The position numbers and the translations under genes are program-made. Under the pieces are notes generated by a model, which worked only from the letters and a program-made list of their open reading frames with translations, was not told the origin of the DNA and did not search any database. A stretch of 64,000 bases of DNA from Caulobacter soli. GTDB taxonomy: Bacteria > Pseudomonadota > Alphaproteobacteria > Caulobacterales > Caulobacteraceae. The DNA lies in assembly GCF_011045195.1 (NCBI RefSeq), contig NZ_CP049199.1:4075501-4139500 (forward strand), given 5' to 3'. Numbering within the stretch: position 1 is the first letter of the stretch; every line of letters starts with the position of its first letter. Below, piece after piece: positions 1 through 18,123 of this stretch.

Positions 1-302
1 GCGTTGGCGACGCGCGAGCCCTGGGCCCGGGAGAGCAGGACGTTGAGCGCCGAGCGCATGTCGGCGCCGGCTTCCAGAAGGTCCGCCAGGCTGAGCAGGA
101 CCTCGGCGCTTTCCCGGTCCCCGAGGCCGGGGTCGCCGCCGCCGCGGACCTGAGCCGCCGCCGGCCGCAGCTTGAGCGGCGACAAGCCCTGGCGGCGCAG
201 GCGCTCGAAGGCGGCCTGCTCGCTGGGTCCCTGCACCTGGCCGCGCACGCGCTTGCCGTCGGCCCCCAGCGCCACATAGGCGAAGGTCTGGCCGTCAGTC
301 AT
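1..302 (-). CDS. gspF: Type II secretion inner-membrane platform protein GspF, N-terminal part (cut by window edge)
   Basis: Only the first ~100 residues are in the window. The protein starts MTDGQTFAYVALGADGKRVRG, the usual GspF opening in which a short beta segment precedes an Arg/Gln-rich helix (ERLRRQGLSPLKL), followed by the start of the first cytoplasmic T2SSF domain (LLSLADLLEAGADMRSAL). GspF is the polytopic platform protein that links the GspE ATPase to pseudopilus assembly. Its ATG overlaps the end of gspE by 8 bp, so it is the last gene seen of the leftward T2SS operon. The assignment is firm from N-terminal sequence plus position after gspE; the rest of the gene lies to the left. 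Confidence 0.85.
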   Translation of the reverse strand, partial: MTDGQTFAYVALGADGKRVRGQVQGPSEQAAFERLRRQGLSPLKLRPAAAQVRGGGDPGLGDRESAEVLLSLADLLEAGADMRSALNVLLSRAQGSRVAN

Positions 303-1989: not shown

Positions 1990-2729
1990 GGGATCAGGTC
2001 TCCGAACAGGCCCGCCTGCAGGGCTAGGCCGACCACCCAGCCGCTGGCCGCCAGGACGGGTCCGAAGGCGATTCTGCCGTCGGCGGGCTTGGCCACGCGG
2101 ACCTGGAGAAGGCCGAACAGGCCAGCCAGCGCCACGGCCCAGGGCGTCGCCGCGCCCAGCCATAGGGCCAGGGCGATGGCCAGTTTGACGTCTCCCAGAC
2201 CCAGGCCGGGATCACCTCGCCGGGCGGCGAAACCTCGACGTAGCAGAAGCAGGGCGCCGCCCGTCAGGACGCCCGCGACAAGGCCGGCCAGCACGGCTTC
2301 GGGTCCCCGCAACAGCGAAAGACCAACGCCCAGGATCGCCACGGCCAGACTGGCCAAATCTGGCAACCGGCGCACGACGGCGTCGGCGGCCGCGGCGGCG
2401 ATCAACACCAAGCCAAGCGCGGCGGCCGCCAGCGCCGACCCGATCGGCAAGGTCGCGACACTGACCATCGCCAGTACGGCGCCCAGGACCTCGCCAACGA
2501 AGTGTCCCCGATGGATCGGCGCGCGACAACACGCGCAAGCCCCGCCCAACCGCACGTAGGAGACGATCGGGACGGTGGCGCCATATCCCAGAGGCGTGGC
2601 GCAACCGTCGCAACGCGAGCGCCCGCTCAGCGCCTGCTCGCCTCGCGCCCAGCGCAAACCAGCCGTGACGGCGAAGCTGCCGACGACCGCCCCTACGGGC
2701 AGAGCCAGAATGGCGCCCAGCAGGTTCAT
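1986..2729 (-). CDS. gspO: Prepilin leader peptidase / N-methyltransferase GspO
   Basis: Polytopic inner-membrane aspartyl protease of 247 residues that cleaves and N-methylates the pseudopilins encoded in the same operon. It keeps both cytoplasmic CXXC pairs of the bifunctional type (C40/C43 and C65/C68) and both catalytic aspartate sites: DAVVRRLPD and the GxGD motif in LGLGDVKL. About seven or eight hydrophobic segments are apparent. It overlaps gspE by 4 bp and gspG by 4 bp. Having a dedicated peptidase inside the cluster means the locus can mature its own pseudopilins without a separate pilD. Confidence 0.93.
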   Translation of the reverse strand: MNLLGAILALPVGAVVGSFAVTAGLRWARGEQALSGRSRCDGCATPLGYGATVPIVSYVRLGGACACCRAPIHRGHFVGEVLGAVLAMVSVATLPIGSALAAAALGLVLIAAAAADAVVRRLPDLASLAVAILGVGLSLLRGPEAVLAGLVAGVLTGGALLLLRRGFAARRGDPGLGLGDVKLAIALALWLGAATPWAVALAGLFGLLQVRVAKPADGRIAFGPVLAASGWVVGLALQAGLFGDLIP

Positions 2730-3181
2730 TTCGGCGCGACCAGATCGCGTTTGGTCCCCGATCCACCGACCTTGCGGTCGGAGCCGAGACTGACGACTTT
2801 GAAATCCCCGTCATCGTCGACGACGCGATAGAGGATGTCGTTGGTCCACGGATCCTTCAGGTTGGCGGCCGATTTCAGATAGGGACCGGTCCAGCCCTCG
2901 ACGTCAGCCGGCTCGGTGATCAGCACCTTGAGTCCTTCGCCGGCCGTTGGGTAGCGGCCGGTGTCAGAGTGGAACATCTCGACGGCGGCGGCCACCGACT
3001 CCAGCTGCAGCTGGGCGGATTTCACACGGGCGCGCCCCAGCTGCCCCATCAGGTTTGGCGTCAGCACCGCGGCAATCAGGCCGATGATCGCGATGACCAC
3101 CAGCATCTCGGTCAGGGTGTAGCCGGCGTCCCGTCCGTTCCGCTCTCGCCCGTCGTTGGAGGCTCGATGGTCTTGTCGCAT
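2726..3181 (-). CDS. gspG: Major pseudopilin GspG
   Basis: About 151 residues with a class-III leader: a charged N-terminus ending in G, then YTLTEMLVVIAIIGLIAAVL with Glu at +5. The C-terminal half carries the GspG signature GEGLKVL...GPYLKS...DPWTNDILYR and a DDDGDFKVVSLGSD calcium-loop-like end, which is diagnostic for GspG as opposed to the minor pseudopilins. I chose the ATG at 3181 because GGGGAAAGG lies about 8 bases upstream; a longer in-frame reading begins at 3220. It overlaps the end of the gspK-like gene by 70 bp and the gspO start by 4 bp. Confidence 0.93.
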   Translation of the reverse strand: MRQDHRASNDGRERNGRDAGYTLTEMLVVIAIIGLIAAVLTPNLMGQLGRARVKSAQLQLESVAAAVEMFHSDTGRYPTAGEGLKVLITEPADVEGWTGPYLKSAANLKDPWTNDILYRVVDDDGDFKVVSLGSDRKVGGSGTKRDLVAPK

Positions 3182-3870
3182 GTCACGCCTTTCCCCACGC
3201 CTCGTCCGAAGCGTCGCCATATCACCGCGCTGGGTTTCTCGGCCCGCCCGATCAATCTCACAATCCGCTCGTCCATCCAGCCATCTTCAGTGCTGGCGCG
3301 AATTCGCCAGACCTGACCCGCGCGCGCCCCGCCCGGTTCCTCAACCGGTTGGCGGGTCCCGCCGAGGCTGACGACCTTGGCCGCCCCCCAGGGCGAGATG
3401 GCGCTGGCCGCGCAAGCGCGCCAGCCACGTCCATCGTCCGCCGCCTGGATCTGGTCCGGCGCCGCAGTCTTCGCCTCCAGCCCAGCCAACCGCTGACGAG
3501 CCCCGCCCGGATCGACCGCGCCCAGGCCGATCAATGTCTTGTCGTCCAAGTCACTCGCCAGAGCCAGTCGCAGCTTGGGCGCCTCGGCCTCGGCCAATAG
3601 CGAAACCTCCCTGACGTCGAGCCCGCCGACGCTCCAGGCCAGCCGCCCCGGGCCAGACCCGTTCAGAAGCTTGGTCGCCGCCAGCATCTGCGCGCCGGAC
3701 AAGGCGTACTCGGCCTGACTGCGTCGATAGTCAGCCCGCGCCAGCTTCAGGGCGGCGACGCCGCGCATGACCAGGGCCGCCGCCAGGATCGCGATGGCCA
3801 GGCTGACCGCCAGGGCCGCGGCCGTGGCGTAGCCCCCGTCGCCCTGGTCCTCAGCGCGGCAGCAGGCCAC
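3112..3870 (-). CDS. gspK: GspK-like minor pseudopilin
   Basis: 252 residues beginning MACCRAEDQGDGG then a single hydrophobic helix (YATAAALAVSLAIAILAAALVM). The glycine before the helix could be the prepilin peptidase site, but there is no Glu at +5, which is a GspK trait. The body is shorter than a typical GspK (about 300 or more residues) yet contains the GspK-like stretch LASDLDDKTLIGLGAVDPGGARQRLAGLEAK and a C-terminal strand-rich end. It overlaps gspD by 20 bp and gspG by 70 bp. GspK normally caps the pseudopilus tip with GspI and GspJ, both of which are in this operon. Identification is from position plus the missing Glu5, so moderate. Confidence 0.7.
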   Translation of the reverse strand: MACCRAEDQGDGGYATAAALAVSLAIAILAAALVMRGVAALKLARADYRRSQAEYALSGAQMLAATKLLNGSGPGRLAWSVGGLDVREVSLLAEAEAPKLRLALASDLDDKTLIGLGAVDPGGARQRLAGLEAKTAAPDQIQAADDGRGWRACAASAISPWGAAKVVSLGGTRQPVEEPGGARAGQVWRIRASTEDGWMDERIVRLIGRAEKPSAVIWRRFGRGVGKGVTCDKTIEPPTTGESGTDGTPATP

Positions 3871-5812
3871 GGCTCTCGATCTCGCGCATGTCGGCCAGCA
3901 GATCGCGCGTCATCAGGCTGGAGGCGGCCGGATCGCGCATGATCTTGACGGTCAACAACACCACCAGTTCGGTGCGCGCCCCCTCCTTCGACTTGGACTT
4001 GAAGAGGTTGCCTAGCACCTTGACGTCCTTGAGGCCCGGCACGCCGCTGTTGGAGTCGGTGCTACGATGGCTGATAAGTCCGCCCAGAGCGACGACCGCG
4101 CCATCCTGAAGCACCAGGGTGCTGGACAACTTGCGCTGCTGGATGGTCGGAGAGTCGATGCCCGAGGTCACGGTCTTGGACACGCCGCTGACCTCCTGGG
4201 CGATATCCACCACCACCTTGTCGTCACCGCTGATCCTGGGCGTGACCTCGAGGATCACGCCGGTGTCGCGGTAATCCACCGTATTGACGATGGCCGGCGT
4301 AGACGTGGTGGTGTTGGTGGCCGTCTGGGTGACGATCGGAACCTGGTCGCCGATCTGCAGACGGGCCTTGTGGTTGTCCAGAGTGATCAGCTTGGGCGCG
4401 GAGACCACGTCAATGGTCGTGCGCGAGCCTAGGGCGTTGATGGCCGCGTCGATATCACCGCCCAAATAGGTGATCGAGAAGCCCGGGAATTTGGGGCCGA
4501 CCACGCCGTTGTCGGTGTAGACCGAATTACCCCCCAGCTTGCCGCTATCGCTCACCGCCGACCAGTCGACGCCGAAACGGAAGTCGTTGGTCAGGCTGAC
4601 CTCGATGATCGAGGCCTCGATCATCACCTGGGCAGGCGGGCGATCGATCTCGGCCAGGGTCTGTAGCAGGCTCATCCAGCGCGCGGCCGGAGCACGGACG
4701 ATCAGGGTGTTGCTGTCACGGTCGACGCCGATGCGCACCCCATCCTCCAGCTTCTGATCGCTCGAGCCTTCGCTGTCGTTCCCGCCGCCGGATTTCGCGC
4801 CACCGTCATCCTTGACGGATGCGGCGGAGTCCACGGCTTGGGAGACATCGCGGCCAGCGGAGCGGTCGATGGTCTCGCCGCCATTCCCGCTACCGGTCCC
4901 CAGGACTTGTGACAGGGTCCGGGCCAAGGAAGCGGCCGAGGCGCTGCGGGGGCGATAGACGTAGAGCTGGGTGGAGAGATCGCGCGAAGGGGTGTCCAGG
5001 CGAGCGATCCAACCGGCCACCTCGTTCATCGCCGTCTCGGTGCGGGCCGAAACGATCAGTCCGTTCAGTCGGCTCAGCGGCGACACCGAAACGCCCTGCA
5101 CGCCGGCGGTGGCCAGGATCTTGGCCAGATCAGTCGCTACCGCGCCCGCCGAGGCTTGGCGCAGATCGAACCAGCGGATGCGCGCACCCTCGAAGACGTT
5201 GCGGTCCAAGACCTTGATGGTCTCCAGCAGCGACTGCACCTCCGTACCCGATCCGCCCAGAACGATCAGGCCCAGCTTATCGTTTGAATAGAGCACCGCC
5301 TTGGAGCCGGTCATCGCCTCCAGCGCCTTGGCCACTTCGGTGGGGGCGGAGAACGACAACGGCACGGCCACGATATCATAACCGCCGCGCCGCGCGCCGC
5401 TGAGCGCGCTGGGATCGCGCAACGCCGCTGACGAGCGGGCCTTGTCGCGCGGCGCCAGCACCAGGCTGTCGCCCTGGCGCAGCAGAGCGACATCGTTGAC
5501 CGCCAAGGCCGCCTCGAAAGCTTCGAGAAGCTGGGCGCGGGTCAGCCGCCGGTCGATCCGGAACGACACCTTGCCGGTGACGCCGGGATCGACCGTGTAG
5601 GGCACGCCCAGGGCGTTGCCGAGAATCTCCTCGGCCACCTGAGCGATGTCGGCGTCGCGAAAGGCGAAGGTGAACGATTCCGCACGCTCGGCCGCCGCCG
5701 CGGGCGCTGCCCTCGCCGACCCCGAGCCCGCCATGGGAAGGATCAGGCAGGTCCCGCTGAGGACGAGGCAGAGCATGCGCTTGAACGTCATGAAAAGCTT
5801 CACTTGAGACAC
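3851..5812 (-). CDS. gspD: Type II secretion outer-membrane secretin GspD
   Basis: 653 residues. A signal peptide (MTFKRMLCLVLSGTCLILPMAG...ARA) is followed by an N0/STN-like domain (FTFAFRDADIAQVAEEILG), N1-N3 domains (roughly 130-350, with a Ser/Gly/Asp-rich insert near 310-350), and the secretin domain with the hallmark VPIVTQTATNTTT and VALGGLISHRSTDSNSGVPGLKDVKVLGNLFK. It forms the outer-membrane channel. The longest reading starts with GTG at 5812 just after the stop of the gspC-like gene; an ATG at 5791 directly before MTFKRMLC is an equally good start and gives a more canonical signal peptide. Confidence 0.95.
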   Translation of the reverse strand: MSQVKLFMTFKRMLCLVLSGTCLILPMAGSGSARAAPAAAAERAESFTFAFRDADIAQVAEEILGNALGVPYTVDPGVTGKVSFRIDRRLTRAQLLEAFEAALAVNDVALLRQGDSLVLAPRDKARSSAALRDPSALSGARRGGYDIVAVPLSFSAPTEVAKALEAMTGSKAVLYSNDKLGLIVLGGSGTEVQSLLETIKVLDRNVFEGARIRWFDLRQASAGAVATDLAKILATAGVQGVSVSPLSRLNGLIVSARTETAMNEVAGWIARLDTPSRDLSTQLYVYRPRSASAASLARTLSQVLGTGSGNGGETIDRSAGRDVSQAVDSAASVKDDGGAKSGGGNDSEGSSDQKLEDGVRIGVDRDSNTLIVRAPAARWMSLLQTLAEIDRPPAQVMIEASIIEVSLTNDFRFGVDWSAVSDSGKLGGNSVYTDNGVVGPKFPGFSITYLGGDIDAAINALGSRTTIDVVSAPKLITLDNHKARLQIGDQVPIVTQTATNTTTSTPAIVNTVDYRDTGVILEVTPRISGDDKVVVDIAQEVSGVSKTVTSGIDSPTIQQRKLSSTLVLQDGAVVALGGLISHRSTDSNSGVPGLKDVKVLGNLFKSKSKEGARTELVVLLTVKIMRDPAASSLMTRDLLADMREIESRGLLPR

Positions 5813-5815
5813 GTC

Positions 5816-6373
5816 TTATCCGCCAAAGCCGGGCGCGCTGGCGGGCGGCGGGGGCGACCTGAAGCCGGGCGGCGGCAAGTCGCCCGACATGGACATCGGC
5901 ATCGCGGACGAGGCGCTATTGCTGGCGATCGGCCCTCCCGGGGCGACGGGCGTGGCTTCGCCGATCCGCAAGGTCCGCACGCCCAGCGGCAGGTCCAGCG
6001 CGGCCCGGCCGGACCCGACGTCGCGCAGCACCACGCCGTCGCGGCTCTCGCCCAGGGCCAGCCAGGCCGGAGGCTTACCGTCGATGGCCAGCAGGGCGGC
6101 TGCGCGTCCCGGCATGCGCGACACGCCCAGCATCGCCACCGCCGGATCGCGCACAGCGTTGGGACCGGTGGAGAGGGCGAACAATGGAGGACCCGACAGC
6201 GACGGCGGGTCGCTCTCCAGACCGCGTTTCGCGCTAAAGACATGCAGGGCGGCCAGGCGATCCTGCGCCGGAGCCAGAACATCCTGCCGGCCAGCGGCCA
6301 GCCAGGCGGTCGCGCCCAGTGCCAGCCCCACCCCGGCGCAGATCGGGATCAAAGGCGCGCGGAGGTCGAGCAA
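5816..6373 (-). CDS. gspC: GspC-like periplasmic HR-domain protein
   Basis: 185 residues: one N-terminal membrane helix (LIPICAGVGLALGATAWLAAG), a linker, an HR-like beta domain (AMLGVSRMPGRAAALLAIDGKPPAWLALGE..GVVLRDVGSGRAALDL), then a Pro/Ser/Gly tail. The HR domain of GspC contacts the N0 domain of GspD, and this gene sits directly before gspD. There is no PDZ domain, so it is a minimal GspC; a GspN-type assignment cannot be excluded. The start is TTG, overlapping gspM by 25 bp, with AGGA about 9 bases upstream. Confidence 0.68.
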   Translation of the reverse strand: MLDLRAPLIPICAGVGLALGATAWLAAGRQDVLAPAQDRLAALHVFSAKRGLESDPPSLSGPPLFALSTGPNAVRDPAVAMLGVSRMPGRAAALLAIDGKPPAWLALGESRDGVVLRDVGSGRAALDLPLGVRTLRIGEATPVAPGGPIASNSASSAMPMSMSGDLPPPGFRSPPPPASAPGFGG

Positions 6374-6864
6374 TAGAAGTGTCCTGAAAACCGAAGGGAG
6401 ACAGCCGAGGTCTTGGAGACCAGATCGACCGAGTCGGCGAAAAGGATCGGCCGCGCCGCGTCCAGGCTTCGCAGCAGAGCCGTGGCGTCCTCGTAGGACC
6501 CCACGGTCTCGAAGCGGAAATTGACGACCAGAAGGCTGTCGCCGACCGGCGTGGAGGGCGAAAACGCGATCGTGGCCAACTTGGCTTGGCCAAGACCGCC
6601 GCGCAGCTTCTGCTCGACGATCCCCACGCCGCGCCCGACGCCCTCCCGGCAGAGCGCGCCGCGCGGATAGGCCGGGCCGCCGGCGTCGGCGCGTTGCAGG
6701 GTCTCGATGCGCTCGAGCTTTCGGTCCAGTTCCGCCAATCGCGCCGCGCGATCGTCAGGGCGGGCCAAGGCCGACAGACCCGTGGCCGTGGCGATGGCCA
6801 TGGCGCCGCCGATCATCGCCGCGGCGACCGCCAAGCCCGGACCGCCAGCGCGTTCGCGGCTCAT
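6349..6864 (-). CDS. gspM: GspM-like inner-membrane T2SS protein
   Basis: 171 residues with one hydrophobic segment near the N-terminus (GLAVAAAMIGGAMAIATATGL), a short coiled-coil-like helix (RAARLAELDRKLERIETL) and a ferredoxin-like periplasmic end (LLVVNFRFETVGSYEDATALLRSL). This is the architecture of GspM, the GspL partner in the T2SS platform. The ATG at 6864 overlaps the gspL stop by 4 bp. Sequence similarity to canonical GspM is weak by eye; topology and operon position carry the call. Confidence 0.72.
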   Translation of the reverse strand: MSRERAGGPGLAVAAAMIGGAMAIATATGLSALARPDDRAARLAELDRKLERIETLQRADAGGPAYPRGALCREGVGRGVGIVEQKLRGGLGQAKLATIAFSPSTPVGDSLLVVNFRFETVGSYEDATALLRSLDAARPILFADSVDLVSKTSAVSLRFSGHFYCSTSARL

Positions 6865-7640
6865 CGTCCGGCCTCCTCGGGCTCGATCCGCCATGTGGTC
6901 GCCCCCACGCGGGTGACCGTGCGATGGAGATCGATGAACGGCGAAGTCTCGCCGCGCGCCTCGACCTGGCTTACGCCGTGATCCCAGCGCCAGGTTTCGA
7001 TGCGAGCGTCGGGACCGCGCGCCGCCATCGCCCAGGCCAAATCCGTCAGCGGCGACGAGACCCGATCCTCCGGCGATGCGGCGACCAGCGCCGCCGACTG
7101 CCGGCGAACCAGCTGGCTCGCCTCGGCGCGCTGCAGCTTCACCGCTGCGTCGTGCTCCAGCGTCGCCAGCTGTTCCTCGCCTTGAGCGCGGGCCAGCAAG
7201 GCCCCGGCGACCGACACGACCAGCAGGGCCGCGACGCCCGCCGCCGCGACGCCGACCAGCAGCGCGCGTCTCGCCCGGCGCGCCTGGGCCTCTGGCGGCT
7301 CGAACACCACCTGCGCCCGCCGGCCTTCAACTTCGACGTCCGCCTCGAACCGTTCCTGAATTTCCGAAACGCGCACATAGCAAGCGGCGAACAGGGCGCT
7401 CTGGTTGGAACGCCAGGGCGTCAGGCGCTTGAGTTGCAGGTGCACCTGATCCATCGGCAGCGGCGCTTCATGGCGCGCCGCCAACTGGGCGCCATGCCGC
7501 TGCTCCCACGGCCAACCGGCCGGCGCCTGGATCGCGCGGGTGAACACACGCGGCGGCGCGGCGGGAGCCTCGTCAAAGGCGATGTCGGTCACGGCTTCGC
7601 CGTCCGCCTCGACCAGGCGCAGATCCAGGGGCGTCCTCAT
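6861..7640 (-). CDS. gspL: GspL-like inner-membrane T2SS protein
   Basis: 259 residues. An N-terminal cytoplasmic half (MRTPLDLRLVEADGEAV...) precedes one membrane helix (LLVGVAAAGVAALLVVSVAGALLA, about residues 140-165) and a periplasmic domain with a heptad-rich start (EEQLATLEHDAAVKLQRAEASQLVRRQ). GspL anchors GspE to the membrane via its cytoplasmic domain and pairs with GspM. The cytoplasmic part is only ~140 residues, shorter than the ASKHA-like domain of classical GspL, so this is a reduced version. ATG at 7640 overlaps gspJ by 4 bp; earlier in-frame sequence is a shadow of gspJ. Confidence 0.72.
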   Translation of the reverse strand: MRTPLDLRLVEADGEAVTDIAFDEAPAAPPRVFTRAIQAPAGWPWEQRHGAQLAARHEAPLPMDQVHLQLKRLTPWRSNQSALFAACYVRVSEIQERFEADVEVEGRRAQVVFEPPEAQARRARRALLVGVAAAGVAALLVVSVAGALLARAQGEEQLATLEHDAAVKLQRAEASQLVRRQSAALVAASPEDRVSSPLTDLAWAMAARGPDARIETWRWDHGVSQVEARGETSPFIDLHRTVTRVGATTWRIEPEEAGR

Positions 7641-8194
7641 GGCGTCTTGATCCTGCAGGCCCCGGCGATGGCGTCGAACTGGCAATCGCGGGGCTCGAAG
7701 GCCCAGACTCGCGCCACCGCCAGCGGCCGAGCCGGCTTCGCAGCGGACAGCAGAATGGCCCGCGGCGCAGCGTCCTGGACATCTTCCCCCGTCGTGGCGG
7801 CTGGCGGCCAGGCCGCGACCGCGCCACGGCGGTCCAGATAGCTGAACCGCACATCCGGCTGACGAAGACGGACGCGTCGCGATCCCGACCGCCCTTGAAG
7901 GACGAGGACGGTGCGCCGCCGGTCGGCTTCCAGCCGAACGGTACAGGTCGTCGTCCCGCACGTCGCCGAAAGACCGCGATCGTCGCCGCTTAAGGTCTCG
8001 ACGTCCTGCTCGGCCAGCCATGTGGTCAGGGCGCGATCAGCCGCGCGATCATCGACCAGGCGTGTGGAAATGCGGGTCGAGGTCAATTGCTGGCGAGCGA
8101 TCAGGCTGGCGACCAGGCCCAGCCCGCCCATGGCCATGCCGAGGATCGCCAGGGCCGCCAGCATCTCGGCCAGGGTGTAGCCGTCGTCGGTCAT
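7637..8194 (-). CDS. gspJ: Minor pseudopilin GspJ
   Basis: 185 residues opening MTDDG|YTLAEMLAALAILGMAM, a clean prepilin site with Glu at +5. The body fits GspJ: RQQLTSTRISTRLVDDRAADRALTTWLAEQDVETLSG, a CGTTTCTVRLEADRRR strand pair and ...RRVRLRQPDVRFSYLDRRG. GspJ is part of the pseudopilus tip with GspI and GspK. The gene is coupled by 4-bp overlaps to gspI upstream and gspL downstream. Confidence 0.85.
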   Translation of the reverse strand: MTDDGYTLAEMLAALAILGMAMGGLGLVASLIARQQLTSTRISTRLVDDRAADRALTTWLAEQDVETLSGDDRGLSATCGTTTCTVRLEADRRRTVLVLQGRSGSRRVRLRQPDVRFSYLDRRGAVAAWPPAATTGEDVQDAAPRAILLSAAKPARPLAVARVWAFEPRDCQFDAIAGACRIKTP

Positions 8195-8571
8195 CCGACC
8201 GTCTCGGGCAGGCAGGTGTCGACGGTGGCGATGCGATAGATACGACCGCTGGCGGCCTTGGCCGAAGCGGTGCGCACGCAGGGTGTCGCCCGGTGAGGCG
8301 ACGTATCGCCAGCCACATGGGCTTCGACCCGCCAGTCGAGGCCCTGGTCGTGGCCGCTCCAGACGCCGGCTTCGCCAGTGGTGCTTTCCAGGCGTTCGCG
8401 CAGCAGCAGTTCGGCGTCGCGGGTCTCGCCGGCCGAGCGGCTGGCACGCGCCCCGACCTGGACCGCCATCAGCGACAAGGCCAGGCTCGACGACAGGATG
8501 GTGACGGCCACCAGGGCGTCAACGGCCGCGAAGCCCTCCTGGCCCCGGATCGGACCTGGTTCCTGACGCAT
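8191..8571 (-). CDS. gspI: Minor pseudopilin GspI-like, first gene of the T2SS operon
   Basis: 126 residues. The leader ends RGQEG and the helix follows as FAAVDALVAVTILSSSLALSL. The residue at +5 is Asp, not the near-universal Glu, which is conservative but unusual. The body (ERLESTTGEAGVWSGHDQGLDWRVEAHV) resembles GspI, and the place before gspJ agrees. I chose the ATG at 8571, with GGAGTGGGG just upstream; a GTG at 8580 is also in frame. Two cysteines near the C-terminus (PCVRT, DTCLPE) could pair in the periplasm. Confidence 0.72.
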   Translation of the reverse strand: MRQEPGPIRGQEGFAAVDALVAVTILSSSLALSLMAVQVGARASRSAGETRDAELLLRERLESTTGEAGVWSGHDQGLDWRVEAHVAGDTSPHRATPCVRTASAKAASGRIYRIATVDTCLPETVG

Positions 8572-8757
8572 ATGCCCCACTCCGCGCCCCGACGCGCATA
8601 CCCCGGAGGCTTGGCCTCCTAGCGCCTGATATCACGCGATGCAGGCGGATGAACAGCCGGCGTCTTCAAAGTTGCAGCGCCAAGTAGACCCGAAGCGCCC
8701 GGGTCGTTACCGTTGTGACACCATCGCCTATGAGCTCAGCAAGACGTTCGCCGCATC
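8572..8757. promoter_or_regulatory. Divergent intergenic region between the T2SS operon and a TonB/TolA-like gene
   Basis: This gap must hold the promoters for the leftward T2SS operon and the rightward gene at 8758. A perfect 6-bp stem with 3-base loop (GGAGGC TTG GCCTCC) lies near 8604-8618, close to the gspI start, and could be an operator or a leader hairpin. I could not identify a convincing -35/-10 pair. Confidence 0.35.
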
Positions 8758-9504
8758 ATGTCAGGATCCTCTCCGAACGCGCTTGACGACACTCGGATCA
8801 CAACCGTCTCGGCGCTGGCGGCCTTGAGTGGCCATGCCGTGATCATCTTGGGGGCGCTGTGGCTTGGCGCCCAAAGCCGAACCATCGTCGTCCCGCCCGG
8901 CGTGGTCGGGGTCACCCTGGTCAGCGGCGCGCCAGGCGGAGCCGCGGCGCCGGCTCTAGCCACTCATGCGACAGCCACATCTGCGGCGCCCACTGTGGCT
9001 TCGCAAGCTCCCGCCCCGGACGCTTCTAGCGGCGAACGCCTCGATCGCCTCATCGCGCCGGACACCGCCACCCCCCCCTCGACCTCAGCGAAAGCCGAGC
9101 GGTCGTCCGCCAATAGCGAGGCGGATGCGGCGACAGCCTTAAGCGCCTCCGGGTCCAGCCGGGCCGACCGGGGGTTGGGCCAGGGTGAAAGCGCCGAGGG
9201 CGTCGACCTCTACGCCGCCGCGTCCCTGCCGAACGTGGGCGCTCGCCCCGCCTCACCGCCGGCCGGCGATCTCTGGAAGAAGGTGGCGCCGTGCTGGCGC
9301 CCAGCGGCGGCACGCAAAGCGACACTCTTGATCGAGCTTGGTCCCGACGGCCATCTGGTCGGCCTGCCTAAGGCCGTCCGCAAGATCTCCGCCCCCGCCG
9401 ATCCGCAACTGCTGCTCGCTGAACGCGCCGGTGTCCGTGCCGTGCAGGCCTGCGCGCCTTACGAAGATCTGGCTGACCGGGCTTGGCGGGTGACGTTTCC
9501 GTAG
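8758..9504 (+). CDS. TonB/TolA-like envelope protein
   Basis: 248 residues with the classical TonB/TolA build: short cytoplasmic start, one membrane anchor (LAALSGHAVIILGALWLGAQ, ~20-40), a long Ala/Pro/Ser/Thr-rich low-complexity spacer (~50-165), and a small C-terminal alpha/beta domain (LWKKVAPCWRPAAARKATLLIELGPDGHLVG...AVQACAPYEDLADRAWRVTFP) resembling the TolA/TonB C-terminal fold with its paired cysteines (APCW and QACAPY). It is divergent from the T2SS operon; a role in energising or bracing the envelope near the secretin is only inference. Its end is followed within about 15 bp by a transposase remnant. Confidence 0.65.
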   Translation: MSGSSPNALDDTRITTVSALAALSGHAVIILGALWLGAQSRTIVVPPGVVGVTLVSGAPGGAAAPALATHATATSAAPTVASQAPAPDASSGERLDRLIAPDTATPPSTSAKAERSSANSEADAATALSASGSSRADRGLGQGESAEGVDLYAAASLPNVGARPASPPAGDLWKKVAPCWRPAAARKATLLIELGPDGHLVGLPKAVRKISAPADPQLLLAERAGVRAVQACAPYEDLADRAWRVTFP

Positions 9505-9519: not shown

Positions 9520-9945
9520 GTATGAATTTTCCGGCTCGGCCCGCTCTCGTGCAATCGACTTGAGACGGTAGAGGTCGCTGAACTTCAGTTCTTTCGACGC
9601 AGCGGCGGTCGCGCCGGCGTTGCACCACAAGGCCGAGAACCTCGCCCACGTCGTCGACGGCGCGCCACAGTCACATGCGCCTGCCACCGACATCGCAAAC
9701 CGTCTCGTCCAGATGCCAATGCGGTGACCGCGCGGGCTGCCACTGCTTCAGGTTCCGGGTGATCTGTGTTCCGAACTTGAGCGTCCAGCAACGGATGGTC
9801 TCGTAGCTGACCTCGATGCCACGTTCAGCCAGCAGTTCCTCGACGTCCGGGAGTTCAGACTGAAGCGGAAACGAACCCAGACAGCGTGGCGGATAACATC
9901 GACGAGGAACCGGGGACGCTTGAACGAAAGGGCGCGCCTGCCGCG
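9520..9945 (-). pseudogene. IS6-family transposase remnant (copy 1)
   Basis: On the minus strand, fragments in two frames match an IS6/IS26-type transposase. An N-terminal piece (ALSFKRPRFLVDVIRHAVW) is in one frame; DVEELLAERGIEVSYETIRCW and later SPHWHLDE, GGRRM and VDDVGEVLGLVVQRRRDR are in another. The first shift falls near 9860, and the C-terminal part decays after QRRRDR into a short, partly recognisable tail. The DDE core is therefore incomplete and the element is dead. No terminal inverted repeats or target duplication could be assigned. It lies directly after the TonB-like gene. Confidence 0.75.
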
Positions 9946-10037
9946 CTCCTCTGCCCTGGCAGCTGTTGCGGGCCCAGGCGCCGAGCCCGTCGATCAACAC
10001 GACATGGCGGCGATTGGCCCGACGGCGCCGGACCGTC

Positions 10038-11438
10038 CTATCTTGGAGACTCGAATAGAGGGGGCGGCACTGTCCCGGAGAGTGAGTTTGCAAGACCGGG
10101 GATCGGTTGGTCGCTTACCGGCCCAGTGTACAGATCCGATGTCGTTGGCAAGGTCATTGAAGGCTGCTCGGCAGTGGGGGCCTGCGCCGCCGCCATCGGG
10201 AAGATGTTTGTCGTCGCCGATTTGGTCGAGTTGGTTGCTCTGAGCACAGCGACGCTGGGGACGCGTTCCAGGTAGACGCCGTCAGGAGCAATTCCGAGCA
10301 GGTCGGGCTTGCCGTCGCCATCGACGTCGCCAACGAGACGAGGCTGCGTCGCCTGCGCGCCCCACCCCATCCCAGAAACGAATTTTGTCGTATAGGCCTG
10401 CCACATCGCGAACGTTCCGTTGGGCTGACCCGCCGACACATAGACGTAGTTGCTGCCGAAACCGACAATATCGGCCAAGCCATCGCCCGTTACGTCCCGC
10501 ACATAGCGGGGGTAGGTGTTGAAGTCCGTCCACCCGCCTGTCGCCTGGCCAAAGCCGGCGATGGCCTTGAAGGCCGTAGCGAAGGTGCCGTTGGCCTGCC
10601 CCAAGGCGACATAGACGCCGTCCGATGCAAAGCCGACGAGGTCGGGATATCGATCACCATTCACATCAGCCACCGTACGGGGCGTCAGGTTCTGACTTGT
10701 CCATCCCTGCGAGCTCGTGAACTGGGTGCTTGCGGCCGTCTCGACACCAAAGCCACCCGACGATTGCGCCAAGGCGACCCAGACATAATCGCTGGCGATG
10801 GCGATCAGGTCGGCGTGTCCGTCGCGATTCATATCCGCCATGAAACGGGGGAGCGTGTCCTGGCTGGTCCAACCACCGTTGTATCCAAAGCCGTTCGCGG
10901 CTTTGGAAGCAGTTGCGAATGTGCCGTCCGCCTGGCCCAGGCCGACATAGATTCCGTCATTGGCAAAGCCGACGATATCGGCTTTGCCGTCGCCATTCAC
11001 GTCCGCCGCCATGCGTGGAAAGACAGTGTTGCTCGTCCAGCCAAAGGCCAAAGTCATACTGGTCGTCGCGGTGACAGGATAGGCGAAGGCGCCATTGGCT
11101 TGGCCCAGCGCGACGAAGACATAGTTGCCGCCGAAGCCGATTATATCGTCGCGGCCATCGCCGTTCACGTCGGCCAAAAGCCGTGGATTGACGACTTGGT
11201 CAGTCCAGCCGCCAGACGCGGCGCTAGATCCGAAATACGGACTGGCCCGCGCACCCGCCCGCACTTGGATGCGATTTCCTGCCGCATCATAGGTGTATGA
11301 AACGGTCTCGTTCGCGCTGGAAACCGAAATGAGCTGACCTTGCGCGTCATAGGCGTATTCTGTTGTTGCCTGAGCTTGCGCTGTGGTCGCCACAAGCGCC
11401 ATCAACGACAAAAAACGCAATGGTCTCATCGGGGTCAT
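10038..11438 (-). CDS. Secreted YD-repeat plus FG-GAP/VCBS beta-propeller protein
   Basis: 466 residues. A Sec signal (MRPLRFLSLMALVATTAQAQA) is followed by two YD-type motifs (YAYDAQGQLISV and YTYDAAGNRIQV), then six tandem repeats of about 56 residues. Each repeat has GWT..., a calcium-loop motif of the DVNGDGxxD type, a GF/IG step and a YVxxALGQ-like strand, as in FG-GAP/VCBS propeller blades. Odd repeats favour GNYVFVALGQ and even ones DGIYVGLGQ, so the array looks built from a two-blade unit. The last ~70 residues are Pro/Thr-rich. It lies between two IS6 remnants and near the Rhs gene. The function is unknown; an extracellular calcium-stabilised binding protein is likely. Confidence 0.75.
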   Translation of the reverse strand: MTPMRPLRFLSLMALVATTAQAQATTEYAYDAQGQLISVSSANETVSYTYDAAGNRIQVRAGARASPYFGSSAASGGWTDQVVNPRLLADVNGDGRDDIIGFGGNYVFVALGQANGAFAYPVTATTSMTLAFGWTSNTVFPRMAADVNGDGKADIVGFANDGIYVGLGQADGTFATASKAANGFGYNGGWTSQDTLPRFMADMNRDGHADLIAIASDYVWVALAQSSGGFGVETAASTQFTSSQGWTSQNLTPRTVADVNGDRYPDLVGFASDGVYVALGQANGTFATAFKAIAGFGQATGGWTDFNTYPRYVRDVTGDGLADIVGFGSNYVYVSAGQPNGTFAMWQAYTTKFVSGMGWGAQATQPRLVGDVDGDGKPDLLGIAPDGVYLERVPSVAVLRATNSTKSATTNIFPMAAAQAPTAEQPSMTLPTTSDLYTGPVSDQPIPGLANSLSGTVPPPLFESPR

Positions 11439-11660: not shown

Positions 11661-12005
11661 TCAAACGACTGCTCCGCTCCAGATGCGCATAGCTTCGCCG
11701 CGGAACCGGCGAAGGGTCTGGCGACGGTGCGGGTCGCCGGCGCTGCAGTCCCTGGCGATCTGCAGGCCAAACTTGATCGTCCAGCAGCGGATAGTCTCGT
11801 AGCTGACCTCGATTCCACGCTCCGCCAGCAGTTCCTCGGCATCACGGCGGCTCAGGGTGAAGCGGAAATAGAGCCAAACAGCGTAGCGAATGACCTTGGC
11901 CGGAAATCGGTGACGCTTGAAGGATAAGGCACGCATGGCGCGTCCTGCCGCTTCCAACAAGTCCCGTCCAGCTAGAGCTGCCTCGCAGCACTTCAGTGCG
12001 ATCGG
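11661..12005 (-). pseudogene. IS6-family transposase remnant (copy 2), inserted in the orphan Rhs tip
   Basis: A minus-strand reading frame starts MRALSFKRHRFPAKVIRYAVWLYFRF, continues RRDAEELLAERGIEVSYETIRCWTIKFGLQIAR, then loses transposase similarity within about 10 residues. This is the N-terminal HTH part of an IS6-family transposase; the whole DDE domain is gone. It points the same way as the remnant at 9520-9945. Its upstream end runs straight into the broken Rhs core: the Rhs reading YAYVGNDP changes at about 12005 into sequence leading to this transposase start. Confidence 0.75.
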
Positions 12006-12778
12006 GTCGTTCCCTACATAGGCGTACTAGTTCAGACCCGTCCCATACCCAGTCGGATCAGTTTGTAGAAACCGTCCCAAGGTCGGCGAGTAGATGCGGG
12101 CCTTGTAGTTGTAGAGATCGCCCAACTCCGGCATTCGCATCTGGCCGGTGTACCCGAAGCGCCCCGGGTTGCCTGAGCCGATGCCGTACTCATCATAACT
12201 GTTGGGAGTCTGGGCCGCGCCCGTGGCGTCGCTGGACGAGACGATCGAGCCCTGGGCGTCCGACATCAGCCAGCGCTTCTGGGTCAGGTCTGCGCCCTCA
12301 TAAGTGATGATCGGATCGTCGGCCCCGGGACCGTTGACATAGCGGCGCAGGAGCAAGCCGATGCCGCCATATTCGGCCACCACGTCGACGTCATCGTAGG
12401 CGAAGTAGACCGACGCGCCGCTGACCGGAATGATCGCCGACAGCCGCCCCAGCGGGTCGTAGAGCAACTGACCGTCGCTGGTCGAGATCAGGCGGTTTTC
12501 GATGTCATAGGCATAGGTCTTGGCGCCGCTGGAGGTCAGGTTGCCTCGGGCGTCATAGCCATAGGCCTCGCTGGCGGTCCCGACGCTGCTGGTCACCTGG
12601 TTGAGGCCGTTGACGCCATAGCTCCGGCTCGATTGGCTCCCGCTCCAATCATAGAGCGCCGAGTTGGCGCTGGCTCGTCTGATGACCTGGTTGGCCGGAT
12701 TGTAGTCGTAGCTCCAGGTCTGGTCCTGCGCCGTTCCGGCCAGGTCATGCGTCAGGGTCTTCAGCCGTGAGGCGCCGT
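12006..12778 (-). pseudogene. Orphan Rhs core fragment, broken at both ends
   Basis: Minus-strand sequence encoding the last ~250 residues of an Rhs core, ending GRFLQTDPTGYGTGLN, then a stop, then YAYVGNDP. It matches the C-terminal core of the intact rhs gene without indels over 717 bp (12062-12778 versus 14448-15164, offset 2386). The codon that is TGG in the intact gene (14413-14415) is TAG here (12027-12029). The tip is lost to the IS6 remnant, and at 12778 the core breaks off inside the segment that in the intact gene reads YDGASRLKTL. It resembles the displaced core-plus-tip cassettes found next to rhs loci, here inactivated. Confidence 0.85.
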
Positions 12779-12956
12779 GACAGCTGGCGGCTCAGGAACC
12801 GCGCCTGACCGGCGCGCCCAGCGTCATCCACAACTTGTTCAACCTCCCCCAGATCCCCTCCGGGCAGATGATCGATCAGTGGCTCACTAGGCGGCGACGC
12901 GCTGCGCTAGCTGATCGCTACGCGCCTCGCCGCCGGTCCGGGAACAGAGCGTAGAG
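12779..12956. other. Unassigned junction sequence beside the orphan Rhs core
   Basis: The plus strand can be read as a ~50-residue open frame (QLAAQEPRLTGAPSVIHNLF ... then SGQMIDQWLTRRRRAALADR) that starts exactly where Rhs similarity stops. I do not recognise it. It may be the end of another mobile-element gene that came in with the IS21-like end just to the right. Confidence 0.3.
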
Positions 12957-13429: not shown

Positions 13430-13822
13430 TCACCGTACTCCCGCTCTCCGCTTGACCAGTAGGCCGCCCAACAAACAAAGACAGACCACAAACGCCGCCG
13501 GCGTGGTGAGAGCTTGGTACCAAGCAGCAAGTTCCCAATAAATATCAAATTCTCTTATTTTTAGCCAATCAACTTCCAACCATCGAACAAAGTTAATATT
13601 GATTACTACAAATAAATAAGAAAGAATAGTTGATATAATTAACATTATCCACAAGTTCAGCCTCTGATATATCCCATTTATCCCATATATGACACCAGCA
13701 GGAATAAAAACGATCAGCATTGTACTCATCTCTCCTAGAGATGAATCTACAATATGTAAAACAGTCTCGATTGCCAAAAACAAAAGTGGCGACGCAAGAG
13801 CGGTCAAATGTCTCTTTTTCAT
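13430..13822 (-). CDS. Probable immunity protein of the Rhs toxin, four-helix membrane protein
   Basis: 130 residues starting MKKRHLTALASPLLFLAIET, with hydrophobic helices at about 8-25, 33-51, 57-77 and 105-125 and a basic C-terminus (KRRAGVR). The ATG at 13822 overlaps the rhs stop by 4 bp (ATGA), so it is translationally coupled to the toxin tip. The DNA is strikingly AT-rich next to the GC-rich core, as is common for polymorphic toxin tips and their immunity genes. I know no homologue by eye. A membrane-embedded immunity protein suggests the toxin acts at the inner membrane or in the periplasm. The role is inferred from position only. Confidence 0.65.
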   Translation of the reverse strand: MKKRHLTALASPLLFLAIETVLHIVDSSLGEMSTMLIVFIPAGVIYGINGIYQRLNLWIMLIISTILSYLFVVININFVRWLEVDWLKIREFDIYWELAAWYQALTTPAAFVVCLCLLGGLLVKRRAGVR

Positions 13823-16800
13823 TTCGCTATACCGTCCACATGACCCGGATTGCAAAACATTGGATACTTATCACAAGAAAATACTGAGGGCTGACCTCGG
13901 CCTTCGCCGGACGTCGGAAATTTCATCTCGCTCCATGCAGAAGATTTTTCCATAAATGAAACGCTATCAGATGGATTGACAGTGTCCGGAAAAGATATGC
14001 CGCCAGCAACCAGAGCGTCGTGAACAAGATCACCACAGTTACACCAAGCCACATTATAGGTTTTGAGAAGTTCCTGATGCGCCGCATCCATCATCTTAGC
14101 ATCCTGCGTGCCAGACGAAGCCACTCTGTAGGCGGTATCGTATCTACGGAACAGATTATCCTTCTTTAGGAAATCGTTAAGCGATCCCTTGAACTTAGCA
14201 GTGGTGTACTTTGGCGGCCCTTGGGCAGCGTTGCGCTTGTCCAAAGAGCCATCTTTGGAGAAATACTTCCACCCCCCCTTATCACTGCCTATAATTATCG
14301 CCTGATGGTCAGCCCTCGGGGCCCACCATGGGCTGAAGCGATCATTTAAGACAATGGCGTCTCGTCCATCGGCATCGACTTTATTCAGAGGGTCATTGCC
14401 CACATAAGCGTACCAGTTGAGCCCATCGTCATAGCCTGTGGGGTCGGTTTGTAGAAACCGTCCCAAGGTCGGCGAGTAGATGCGGGCCTTGTAGTTGTAG
14501 AGATCGCCCAACTCCGGCATTCGCATCTGGCCGGTGTACCCGAAGCGCCCCGGGTTGCCTGAGCCGATGCCGTACTCATCATAACTGTTGGGAGTCTGGG
14601 CCGCGCCCGTGGCGTCGCTGGACGAGACGATCGAGCCCTGGGCGTCCGACATCAGCCAGCGCTTCTGGGTCAGGTCTGCGCCCTCATAAGTGATGATCGG
14701 ATCGTCGGCCCCGGGACCGTTGACATAGCGGCGCAGGAGCAAGCCGATGCCGCCATATTCGGCCACCACGTCCGAGCCGTCGTAAGCGAAGTAGACCGGC
14801 GCGCCGCTGACCGGGACGATCGCCGACAATCGGCCCAGCGGGTCGTAGAGCAACTGACCGTCGCTGGTCGAGATCAGGCGGTTTTCGACGTCATAGGCAT
14901 AGGTCTTGGCGCCGCTGGAGGTCAGGTTGCCTCGGGCGTCATAGCCATAGGCCTCGCTGGCGGTCCCGACGCTGCTGGTCACCTGGTTGAGGCCGTTGAC
15001 GCCATAGCTCCGGCTCGATTGGCTCCCGCTCCAATCATAGAGCGCCGAGTTGGCGCTGGCTCGTCTGATGACCTGGTTGGCCGGATTGTAGTCGTAGCTC
15101 CAGGTCTGGTCCTGCGCCGTTCCGGCCAGGTCATGCGTCAGGGTCTTCAGCCGTGAGGCGCCGTCATAGCCGTAGCGCTGCTCGGTCCCGTTGGCGTAGT
15201 GCAGCATCGCGCGGCGACCCAGGTCGTCATAGGCATAGGTCGCCAGGTTGACGGACGTGCCCGCCCCCTCCCAGATCCCGGTCAGCTCGCCCAAGGTATC
15301 GTAGGTGTAGGTCAGGGTAGCGTTGTTGGGGTAGGTCACCGAGGTGCGACGACCGGCCTGATCGCAGGTGGCCCCAACCCCGTAGCTGGAGTTGGGCGCG
15401 CCAGGACTGACCCGGGTGACCAGGCAGCCCAAGGCGTCGTAGGTCATCGTGGCGATATTGACCTGGCTGGCGCCGGTGGGCCCCACGGCGATCTGGCGAT
15501 CCAGGTTGTCGTAGCCGTATGTGATGTCGGGCCAGGCGTCGGGTAGGTCCTTCAGGACCATTCGGCCGAGCGCGTCATAGCCAAAGCCGATCGTCTTGCC
15601 GTCGCGCCGCCGCCAGCTGGTGCGGTTGCCCGCCTCGTCGTAGCCATAAGTCTCGTAGTCGCTGCTGGAGCTGCCCCCGCCCGAGGCGTTGGGATAGCGG
15701 ACACTGGCTAGGCGATCGAGCGCGTCATAGGCGTAGGTCGTCAGGTTGCCGTTGCCGTCGGCGACCGTCTGCTCCTGGCCGTTGAGGGTGTAGGTGACGG
15801 TCTTTTCCACCCGCGGCGTGGCGCTGAGATAGCCGGAGGTAACGCGGGTCAGCCGGCCGATCGCGTCATATTCGCTGTAGGTGATGCGGTCCTGGCCATA
15901 GGCTCCCGCCGTGCTCGGGTCGCAGGCGGACAGAGGCAGGCTGGAGAACACCGCCGGGTTCATCCGCATGGCCTGGCACTGCGGGCGTCCCAGCTGGTCG
16001 TAACTGACTTGGCTGATGTTGCTGGTCTCGCCAAAGCCGACATTGACCACCATGCGCGGGCGCGCCTGGTCGTCGTAATAGGTCTGAACGCTCTGCAGCG
16101 AACCAAAGGTGGCAAGGCCGATATCGCTCGGGCTGGAGGCCTGGCCGTGCTCCACCAGGCTGACCTGGCCGTCGGCCCGATAGGTTGTCTTGGTCGCCCG
16201 GGCTTTCAGCGGTCCGGCGCCGTCCGGATCGGGCGTCACCTCGGCGATCGGCCAGCGCGAGGCGTCGTAGGCCGCGCGAGTGGTGTCGTCCGCGCCTGGT
16301 AGCGGCCCATCGATCGCCACCACGTCGCCGCGATCGTTGTAGGCATAGCTGGTCGTCGCCGACAGCGCGCCATTGCCCGAGCGCACGGTCTTGGACAGCA
16401 GCCGCACATTGTTGGGCTGGGCGCTGTCTTCGTAGCTGTAGGCCGTGACGACCTCGTCGGCCGTGCCGATGCAGGCCGGCGCGGCCCCGGCCATGCAGGT
16501 CGAGACCCGGGTCACGCGCCACACCGGCGCGGCCGCCGCCTGCATCACCCCGTCTCGCACGTACCTCGCGGTGAACTGACCGTAGGCGTAACGGGTCTGG
16601 GGCCGAACCCCATTGGCCGCCGCCGGTCGCGTCACCGTCAGCACCCCGCCGTGCGTGGCGTCATAGGTGTAGTCGGTCTGGTTGGCGCGCGCGTCCCGCA
16701 CCCAGTCGAGTTGATCGCAGACATTGGCGTGGCAGGTGTAGGCCGCGCGCACGACGGTGGCGCCGGCCACCGCCGTCACCTCCGGATCGACGCCGGCCGG

Positions 16801-18123
16801 CGCGCCTTTGGGAAGGCTCCACTTGGCGATGACGTTGCGATAGCCGTCGAACTTGTAATAGTCGCGATTACCCTCGGGGTAAGTGATCTGGACCAGCTTA
16901 CCCTTGCCCAGCAGACCCTGATCGTCGCCGACATACTGATAGGTGGTGATGCGACCCAAGGCGTCGGTGTCGCTGAGGATGTGGCCGTTTCCGGTGCGCG
17001 ACTTGACCACCCGGACATGACCTTGCGGGTCAGTGGTCGTCGTCGTCAGGATACCGTCGATCGGCGCGTTGCTCGAATCTCGCGTGTCCACGACATAGGT
17101 GTAGCTGTAGGTCCAAGTCGAGACGCCGTCGGTGAACGACGTCACCCGCGCCACTTGATCGTCCGTGGTGATGTTACGGCTGTAGGTTCGCGGCTTGTCG
17201 CCAGTGGGGTTACGGAAGCTGAAGCCACCACCCTGTAGAAGAACCCGCCCAAGATCGGCCTGGTTAGCGTAAGTCGGGCCAGCGCACGCGCCGGTGTCGC
17301 AGCCGCCGTTCTTGAGATTAGCCGCCGCTGGAGAAAATGCCGCAAAAGCGCCGCCAGCCGAACCGACCAGGGCGTAGCCCAGGCTGCTTTCGACCTTGGT
17401 GTTTTCGCTGCCGTCCCGGGTGAAAGTCAGAACCTCGCCAGTTGGATATTTCAGGCTGGTGATCAGACCGATCGGCGTGCGGTTGTTTGTGACCCAGGTG
17501 CGGTTCTCGAACATCGCCACCCGGCCGTCCGGCGCGGTGTAGGTGATCACCGAGCCCGGATAGGACCAGCTTCCGACGGAGTCCCCGACGGGCGTGCAGC
17601 AGCCACTGGTCGGGTTGCCGCGGAAAGTCATGCTTTCGCCCTGCAGCACCAGGTTGGTGAAGACAGAGTGCCCGTCGTCGGACAGCTGGAAGTAGGAGTT
17701 CATCGACCCGCGGGCCGTGCCCGAGAAGTACGAATTGCTCGTCGCCAGCCCGCGCGCGCCGCCGCTGCCGATGCTGTTGATCGCCTCGCCTTGCGAATAG
17801 TCGCCGGTCAGCAGGTTCACGCCGTTGGCGTCGGTCGCCGAATAGACCGGGGGCCGGATGCCCGGCGGATGCGCCACACCGTCAGTTGGATCGGGCTCGG
17901 GCTGGAGATTGGCGACAGGGTCGGCGATCTTGGCCTTGACCAGGGCGGCGTCGCTCGCCTCGTCCGCCTGACCGTTCGTCGTCGACGCCTCGGCAGCCGG
18001 AGCCTCGACAACCGGAACGGACGCATCCTGCGCCCAGGCCCACGGCCCCGTCGCGCTCGCGCCAACGCACAGACACAGTAACGCCAACCGACGCATCGCA
18101 AGGGAACTAAGCTGGTGCGTCAC
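13819..18123 (-). CDS. Sec-exported Rhs/YD-repeat polymorphic toxin with an LRAT/NlpC-like C-terminal tip
   Basis: 1434 residues. A signal peptide (MRRLALLCLCVGASATGPWAWAQ) is followed by an Ala-rich linker and an N-terminal region with no PAAR or VgrG-like domain. YD repeats (xxYxYDxxGxxxxx) run from roughly residue 400 to 1130. The Rhs-associated core ends GRFLQTDPTGYDDGLNWYAY. The ~181-residue tip (1254-1434; DNA 13822-14364) has DHQAIIIG (His1273), GWKYFSKDG and, 90 residues on, CNCGDLVHDAL (Cys1361/Cys1363). This His...Asn-Cys order is that of LRAT-like, circularly permuted NlpC/P60 hydrolases. The start is GTG at 18123 with AAGAGG 7 bases upstream; an ATG at 18096 is the alternative. 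The stop overlaps the immunity gene by 4 bp. The export signal separates it from T6SS-borne Rhs proteins. Confidence 0.85.
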   Translation of the reverse strand: MTHQLSSLAMRRLALLCLCVGASATGPWAWAQDASVPVVEAPAAEASTTNGQADEASDAALVKAKIADPVANLQPEPDPTDGVAHPPGIRPPVYSATDANGVNLLTGDYSQGEAINSIGSGGARGLATSNSYFSGTARGSMNSYFQLSDDGHSVFTNLVLQGESMTFRGNPTSGCCTPVGDSVGSWSYPGSVITYTAPDGRVAMFENRTWVTNNRTPIGLITSLKYPTGEVLTFTRDGSENTKVESSLGYALVGSAGGAFAAFSPAAANLKNGGCDTGACAGPTYANQADLGRVLLQGGGFSFRNPTGDKPRTYSRNITTDDQVARVTSFTDGVSTWTYSYTYVVDTRDSSNAPIDGILTTTTTDPQGHVRVVKSRTGNGHILSDTDALGRITTYQYVGDDQGLLGKGKLVQITYPEGNRDYYKFDGYRNVIAKWSLPKGAPAGVDPEVTAVAGATVVRAAYTCHANVCDQLDWVRDARANQTDYTYDATHGGVLTVTRPAAANGVRPQTRYAYGQFTARYVRDGVMQAAAAPVWRVTRVSTCMAGAAPACIGTADEVVTAYSYEDSAQPNNVRLLSKTVRSGNGALSATTSYAYNDRGDVVAIDGPLPGADDTTRAAYDASRWPIAEVTPDPDGAGPLKARATKTTYRADGQVSLVEHGQASSPSDIGLATFGSLQSVQTYYDDQARPRMVVNVGFGETSNISQVSYDQLGRPQCQAMRMNPAVFSSLPLSACDPSTAGAYGQDRITYSEYDAIGRLTRVTSGYLSATPRVEKTVTYTLNGQEQTVADGNGNLTTYAYDALDRLASVRYPNASGGGSSSSDYETYGYDEAGNRTSWRRRDGKTIGFGYDALGRMVLKDLPDAWPDITYGYDNLDRQIAVGPTGASQVNIATMTYDALGCLVTRVSPGAPNSSYGVGATCDQAGRRTSVTYPNNATLTYTYDTLGELTGIWEGAGTSVNLATYAYDDLGRRAMLHYANGTEQRYGYDGASRLKTLTHDLAGTAQDQTWSYDYNPANQVIRRASANSALYDWSGSQSSRSYGVNGLNQVTSSVGTASEAYGYDARGNLTSSGAKTYAYDVENRLISTSDGQLLYDPLGRLSAIVPVSGAPVYFAYDGSDVVAEYGGIGLLLRRYVNGPGADDPIITYEGADLTQKRWLMSDAQGSIVSSSDATGAAQTPNSYDEYGIGSGNPGRFGYTGQMRMPELGDLYNYKARIYSPTLGRFLQTDPTGYDDGLNWYAYVGNDPLNKVDADGRDAIVLNDRFSPWWAPRADHQAIIIGSDKGGWKYFSKDGSLDKRNAAQGPPKYTTAKFKGSLNDFLKKDNLFRRYDTAYRVASSGTQDAKMMDAAHQELLKTYNVAWCNCGDLVHDALVAGGISFPDTVNPSDSVSFMEKSSAWSEMKFPTSGEGRGQPSVFSCDKYPMFCNPGHVDGIAK
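14448..15164. repeat. Rhs core segment duplicated in the orphan cassette
   Basis: This 717-bp part of the intact rhs gene is present again at 12062-12778 in direct orientation with no indels. Differences are few and clustered near 12373-12450 and 12499 (for example YDGSDV versus YDDVDV). Homology continues at lower identity to about 12010 / 14396. Such identical core stretches could allow recombination between the intact gene and the orphan. Confidence 0.9.

Follow-up and report, generated by a model that had tools for sequence, protein, structure and literature searches.

Analysis of a 64,000-nucleotide stretch of the Caulobacter soli genome (contig NZ_CP049199.1, positions 4,075,501 to 4,139,500 of the forward strand; hereafter the window, numbered from its first letter) revealed an Rhs/YD-repeat polymorphic toxin gene that joins a Sec-type N-terminus to an exchangeable C-terminal tip with a predicted fold closest to that of TseH, an effector of the type VI secretion system (T6SS). 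The gene is followed by a small open reading frame (ORF) for a polytopic protein, a kind of neighbour that recurs beside related tips, it carries traces of cassette exchange, and it lies near a type II secretion system (T2SS) cluster, a linkage found in five families. With moderate confidence, we read the locus as an Rhs polymorphic toxin that would be exported through the T2SS and whose tip would strike the cell envelope, with the 130-residue neighbour giving protection. The elements of the toxin locus are as follows.

13819..18123, minus strand: Rhs/YD-repeat polymorphic toxin gene, 1434 residues, GTG start
18028..18123, minus strand: predicted Sec signal peptide, residues 1-32, recognized by inspection and by a crude signal-peptide rule
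14365..14583, minus strand: end of the Rhs core, residues 1181-1253 (TIGR03696, E 7e-19 for the whole protein)
13822..14364, minus strand: exchangeable tip, residues 1254-1434, with a predicted permuted NlpC/P60 (TseH-like) fold and conserved His1273 and Cys1363
13430..13822, minus strand: candidate immunity gene, 130 residues with four hydrophobic segments, overlapping the tip at ATGA

A preliminary description of this DNA had proposed an exported 1434-residue Rhs protein with a signal peptide and an AT-rich tip, and the ORF, its domains and its base composition agree with that proposal. The N-terminus (MTHQLSSLAMRRLALLCLCVGASATGPWAWAQ followed by D, with an AWA-Q site) reads by inspection as a classical Sec signal peptide, as carried by T2SS substrates; the crude rule was satisfied by 17 of 22 Rhs ORFs of the genus, including the genome's own two, versus 22 of 100 control ORFs. 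RHS_repeat was the sole Pfam family in the protein (eight stretches, E<=1), and because the TIGR03696 match to the RHS core ends at residue 1253, the tip was taken to begin at residue 1254. RHS repeats and an RHS-associated core thus stand ahead of a variable tip, as in the Rhs/YD polymorphic toxins. The guanine-plus-cytosine (GC) content falls from 65.7% in the Rhs core to 49.4% in the tip and 39.9% in the small ORF, and that of third codon positions (GC3) from 83.3 to 50.8 and 39.2, respectively.

The closest solved structure to the predicted fold of the tip is TseH, described in PMC12994826 as a permuted NlpC/P60 protein. The modelled tip has its histidine before its cysteine, with the cysteine at the start of a helix, as in the permuted NlpC/P60 superfamily, and we hold this predicted fold assignment to be highly probable. 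The tip looks like an envelope-attacking enzyme, and its target is rather likely to be lipid rather than peptidoglycan.

The tip and the 130-residue ORF very probably constitute a toxin-immunity pair. The stop codon of the tip (TGA, 13819-13821) and the start codon of the small ORF (ATG at 13822) share the sequence ATGA, bearing out the earlier claim of an overlap with an AT-rich membrane ORF, and a hydropathy rule finds four hydrophobic segments, in keeping with the polytopic, membrane-type immunity candidate then suggested; a single-sequence structural model of the protein is all helix, with low global confidence (predicted template modelling score 0.36). The small membrane protein that was expected beside homologous tips adjoins three of the four order-level tip relatives, as an ORF of 179 residues with four hydrophobic segments at +22 nt (L018), one of 130 residues with three at +17 nt (L017) and one of 134 residues with four at -4 nt (L012, where the tip matches as a C-terminal fragment only, with a weak score of E 0.006). 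The fourth tip (L011) has decayed and has no ORF of >=70 residues starting within 150 nt. Since the polytopic ORFs of the three relatives show no significant similarity among themselves, the kind of neighbour is conserved but its sequence is not.

Two further genes bear on how the tip came to its present core.

12004..12784, minus strand: orphan copy of the end of the Rhs core, decayed (96.3% DNA identity) and with a TAG stop, then an insertion-sequence-like remnant
L013:12291-16457: sister full-length Rhs gene of the same genome, about 2.5 kb beyond the first base of the window

The orphan copy aligns with positions 14390-15170 of the Rhs gene and the alignment ends 26 bp ahead of the tip; a core copy that ends just short of the tip is what tip exchange would be expected to leave. 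The sister gene has a core 50% identical to the first, a different tip and a DUF6968 ORF alongside (Pfam E 7e-20), so that tip exchange and a small gene beside the tip, with a putative immunity role, are both seen here as in other Rhs/YD polymorphic toxins. Rhs core matches (E<=1e-20) were found in 18 of 75 genus genomes, and the tip ends differed in all 22 long Rhs ORFs compared (from 30 loci, the genome's own two included). By a simple rule, the ORF after these tips was classed as polytopic (5 cases), lipoprotein-like (3), soluble (8) or having a single hydrophobic segment (2); it was missing in 4, one of which (L026) is a locus that ends about 100 nt downstream. Because we infer the toxicity of the tip, the gene could also be a housekeeping surface YD protein with a lipid- or peptidoglycan-remodelling tip and an unrelated neighbour; the foreign composition of tip and neighbour, the variation of tips between similar cores and the orphan core copy make this improbable. 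In a separate locus (L009:5400-9700, genome G072), a series of displaced Rhs core ends carries varied tips and small ORFs, one of the tips being a relative of the present one. By eye, a GHSYG-type hydrolase motif was seen in one genus tip (L032) and HExxH in two (L022 and L043), each followed by a lipoprotein-like ORF, which suggests further envelope-directed tips.

Between the main and the sister Rhs genes sits a T2SS cluster (window 1-8580, minus strand), which, like the fold of the tip, had gone unmentioned in the preliminary description. Its members and neighbour are as follows.

3..302, minus strand: GspF, partly inside the window (whole gene L013:18098-19303)
295..2163, minus strand: GspE-type T2SS ATPase (Pfam T2SSE, E 6e-121, above the Pfam cut-off; below the NCBIfam equivalog cut-off)
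1986..3870, minus strand: prepilin peptidase-like ORF, GspG and GspK-like ORF (GspG above the NCBIfam cut-off; the other two named from order and look, with no NCBIfam match)
3851..5812, minus strand: GspD secretin (E 6e-116, above the NCBIfam cut-off)
5816..8580, minus strand: GspC-, M-, L-, J- and I-like ORFs (M with weak profile matches below cut-off; J by a prepilin motif only; C, L and I from order, with no match)
8758..9504, plus strand: divergent 248-residue ORF recurring beside this T2SS, labelled 'TonB-like' by us (no Pfam match)

GspD orthologues (45-100% identity) were present in 14 of the 75 genus genomes, 13 of which carry Rhs (Rhs and GspD, Rhs only, GspD only, neither: 13/5/1/56; Fisher test 9e-10, not corrected for descent); in the fourteenth (G061), a weaker match to Rhs (26%) lies close to the T2SS. 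An Rhs match lay <=20 kb from GspD in 9 of these 13 genomes, against 0.46 expected under uniform placement and a maximum of 4 over 20,000 simulations; in the remaining four, the two genes are on separate contigs, one of them 3.3 kb long. A sample of 299 genomes of the order gave Rhs in 63 (E<=1e-30), GspD in 79 (E<=1e-40) and both in 28, with linkage in at least 14 of the 28 (0.67 expected), different contigs in 12 and distant positions in 2; the linkage count is a lower bound because no more than two Rhs candidates were scored in each genome. The linked genomes span five families (f1 to f5), and outside the genus their GspD is 32-47% identical. Stretches were taken from 18 linked genomes, 8 of them genus relatives and 10 from among the 12 of other genera; GspE, F or G accompanied GspD and Rhs in 17 of these, the sole exception (L068, G185) being a stretch that reaches a contig end after GspD. 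Rhs-GspD linkage, at 13.3 kb, was also seen in a genome outside the order (G496:C7:18186-33061). The adjacency of Rhs genes to the T2SS here and in several relatives suggests a way out of the cell for the toxin, and the T2SS of this locus is probably its exporter. One T2SS-linked Rhs protein (G197) ends in an HNH nuclease tip (Pfam E 6e-5, above cut-off); a shared T2SS route, if there is one, must therefore also serve cytoplasmic toxins.

These features can be arranged into a single proposed course of events. The Rhs protein would pass the inner membrane by Sec and form, in the periplasm, a shell of the type expected from its family with the tip enclosed, and the neighbouring T2SS would then export it. 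With His1273 and Cys1363 as the putative catalytic pair, the tip may act on the envelope of a neighbouring cell from the periplasmic side, most likely on phospholipids by acyl cleavage and less likely on peptidoglycan. The 130-residue protein, in the inner membrane, would shield the producer, whose own periplasm the toxin has to cross, together with its kin; tip and immunity gene would be a foreign cassette placed on the core by recombination.

Several results weigh against this interpretation, beginning with the tip itself. The Foldseek E-value for TseH is only 0.015, and the database check foreseen in the preliminary description was answered in one half alone, with a structural match to TseH and the permuted NlpC/P60 fold but no Pfam family in the tip (E<=1; also E<=10), so that the tip is not filed as a member of the TseH clade (DUF6695). 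The 130-residue ORF has no significant sequence similarity to the polytopic ORFs that adjoin the three related tips. According to the available parts of the respective papers, TseH activity was seen in one assay only, at pH 8.9 (PMC12994826), TseH has elsewhere been presented as a peptidoglycan hydrolase whose immunity protein, TsiH, is periplasmic (PMC7721734), and the NlpC/P60 toxins of polymorphic systems are predicted cell-wall cutters (PMC3482391). A toxin of the same fold that cuts peptidoglycan cross-links or stems, with its immunity protein membrane-anchored merely to be near the substrate, would fit those descriptions; it is opposed by the His-before-Cys order, which those parts of the literature assign to the permuted, lipid-associated branch (PMC3142127, PMC12994826), and by the polytopic immunity candidates at this locus and in three relatives, and we consider it a minority possibility.

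The route of delivery is open to similar objections. Linkage between T2SS and Rhs is no proof of export, and its statistics are uncorrected for shared descent; moreover, 5 of the 18 Rhs-positive genus genomes have no orthologous GspD and 35 of the 63 Rhs-bearing order genomes no GspD match at 1e-40; Rhs can therefore occur without this GspD. A common genomic hot spot or synteny by descent, with Rhs leaving by another route, by lysis, or staying in the periplasm, would account for these counts, but the linkage recurs in five families with divergent GspD and differing gene orders; other secretins were linked in none of the four genus genomes having both (0.12 expected), a control of little power. 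We judge such a coincidence of position fairly unlikely. Many known Gram-negative Rhs effectors use the T6SS, and TssB occurs in 4 of the 18 Rhs-positive genus genomes (versus 4 of 57 Rhs-negative ones), as would suit a T6SS effector loaded through an adaptor and bearing a spurious signal peptide. The T6SS was sought through TssB (PF05591) only, with a positive Escherichia coli control, and this marker gave 0 matches in the present genome; neither PAAR nor VgrG was found in the Rhs protein (Pfam, E<=1). Together with the excess of signal peptides among genus Rhs ORFs, these results render T6SS delivery very improbable and lend support, as far as TssB alone can, to the non-T6SS toxin without PAAR or VgrG that had first been described. 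The contact dependence and surface delivery proposed in that description, like the toxicity, are conjectural features that a sequence could not reveal.

Some T2SS-Rhs sets include a further exported protein, and two such proteins belong to this genome.

10038..11438, minus strand: companion protein, 466 residues, with a signal peptide (by eye), a YD-repeat pair and FG-GAP repeats
L013:16445-18001, minus strand: second exported companion, with a YD pair directly after the signal peptide and Ig/cadherin repeats

The two companions share the signal peptide and one YD pair and differ in the C-terminal part, FG-GAP in one and Ig/cadherin in the other. An exported protein whose YD pair directly follows the signal peptide lies between GspF and Rhs in this genome and in G686, G694, G684 and G101; Pfam detects Ig/cadherin repeats behind the YD pair in the second companion here and in G686, G694 and G684, as well as in similar proteins of G719, G200 (at a different place near the cluster) and G136 (on another contig, next to Rhs), and short YD-pair companions occur in G203 and G127. 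By a motif rule, 9 of 20 T2SS-Rhs sets have such a companion and 11 have none. The proposed role is docking or anchoring. More tentatively, the order may possess a three-part weapon made of the T2SS, Rhs shells with exchangeable tips and a small exported YD-pair companion, often with Ig/cadherin or FG-GAP repeats, in which the T2SS would export the folded, loaded shell while the YD pair of the companion docks on it and the companion repeats anchor it at the surface or bind prey. Transposase-like remnants at 9671-10093 and 11661-11960 (minus strand), which we take to be IS6-like, flank the FG-GAP companion gene, and the second abuts the orphan copy of the Rhs core end. Past the sister Rhs gene, on its far side (L013:1-7796), are a porin and a ShlB/FhaC transporter (Pfam), along with a haemagglutination-domain-like ORF and TonB/ExbD-like ORFs (by eye); these place a two-partner secretion set close by. 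ARAGORN reported a 96-base tRNA-Ala with anticodon AGC at 37045-37140 (plus strand), of unusual length and anticodon for a bacterium and possibly a false call.

How signal-peptide-bearing Gram-negative Rhs toxins cross the outer membrane is, to our knowledge, an open question. The T2SS label given to such toxins in PMC3482391 is, in the available part of that paper, tied to the signal peptide, without signature neighbour genes. The recurrent link between Rhs genes and T2SS clusters across five families makes the question directly testable, and the tip carries the permuted NlpC/P60 envelope toxins beyond T6SS effectors, into exchangeable Rhs tips that have polytopic immunity candidates. If true, the three-part weapon would give Gram-negative Rhs toxins a delivery class independent of the T6SS. 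No description of T2SS-linked Rhs toxins was found in literature titles and abstract openings, a coverage that leaves out most subscription papers and all bioRxiv preprints.

Among known systems, the WapA-type YD toxins of Gram-positive bacteria likewise combine a signal peptide, a YD shell, a C-terminal toxin and immunity, but have no outer membrane to cross. TcB/TcC shells offer an analogy in that a YD shell protein has an FG-GAP-bearing partner encoded nearby; the three-part arrangement would follow the same two-protein logic but be T2SS-borne, each protein here has its own signal peptide, and no SpvB/TcB-type domain exceeded its cut-off in the FG-GAP protein of the window (TcdB_toxin_midN, E 0.5, 10.1 bits versus a cut-off of 24.8). 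The Vibrio cholerae T6SS pair TseH-TsiH shares with this locus the closest solved fold and an envelope target; TseH is, as far as the available descriptions go, a T6SS-delivered, PAAR-loaded free protein with periplasmic immunity and has the DUF6695 sequence match absent from this tip, whereas here an Rhs tip is paired with a polytopic immunity candidate. Tox-Act1/Imm-Act1 of the Salmonella T6SS, as presented in the available part of PMC12994826, resembles it in the permuted NlpC/P60 toxin, the membrane immunity and the periplasmic action, but differs in T6SS delivery and in the two transmembrane helices of Imm-Act1 versus four hydrophobic segments here. Signal-peptide Rhs toxins are already known, because the survey of Zhang et al. 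2012 (PMC3482391) includes a Sec/T2SS class that combines signal peptide, RHS repeats and variable tip; Table 1 of that paper gives the class no signature neighbour genes, and the available text mentions neither GspD nor a secretin, whereas a T2SS cluster is linked here. This locus adds two things to these systems: physical linkage to a T2SS cluster, and a TseH-like tip with a polytopic immunity candidate.
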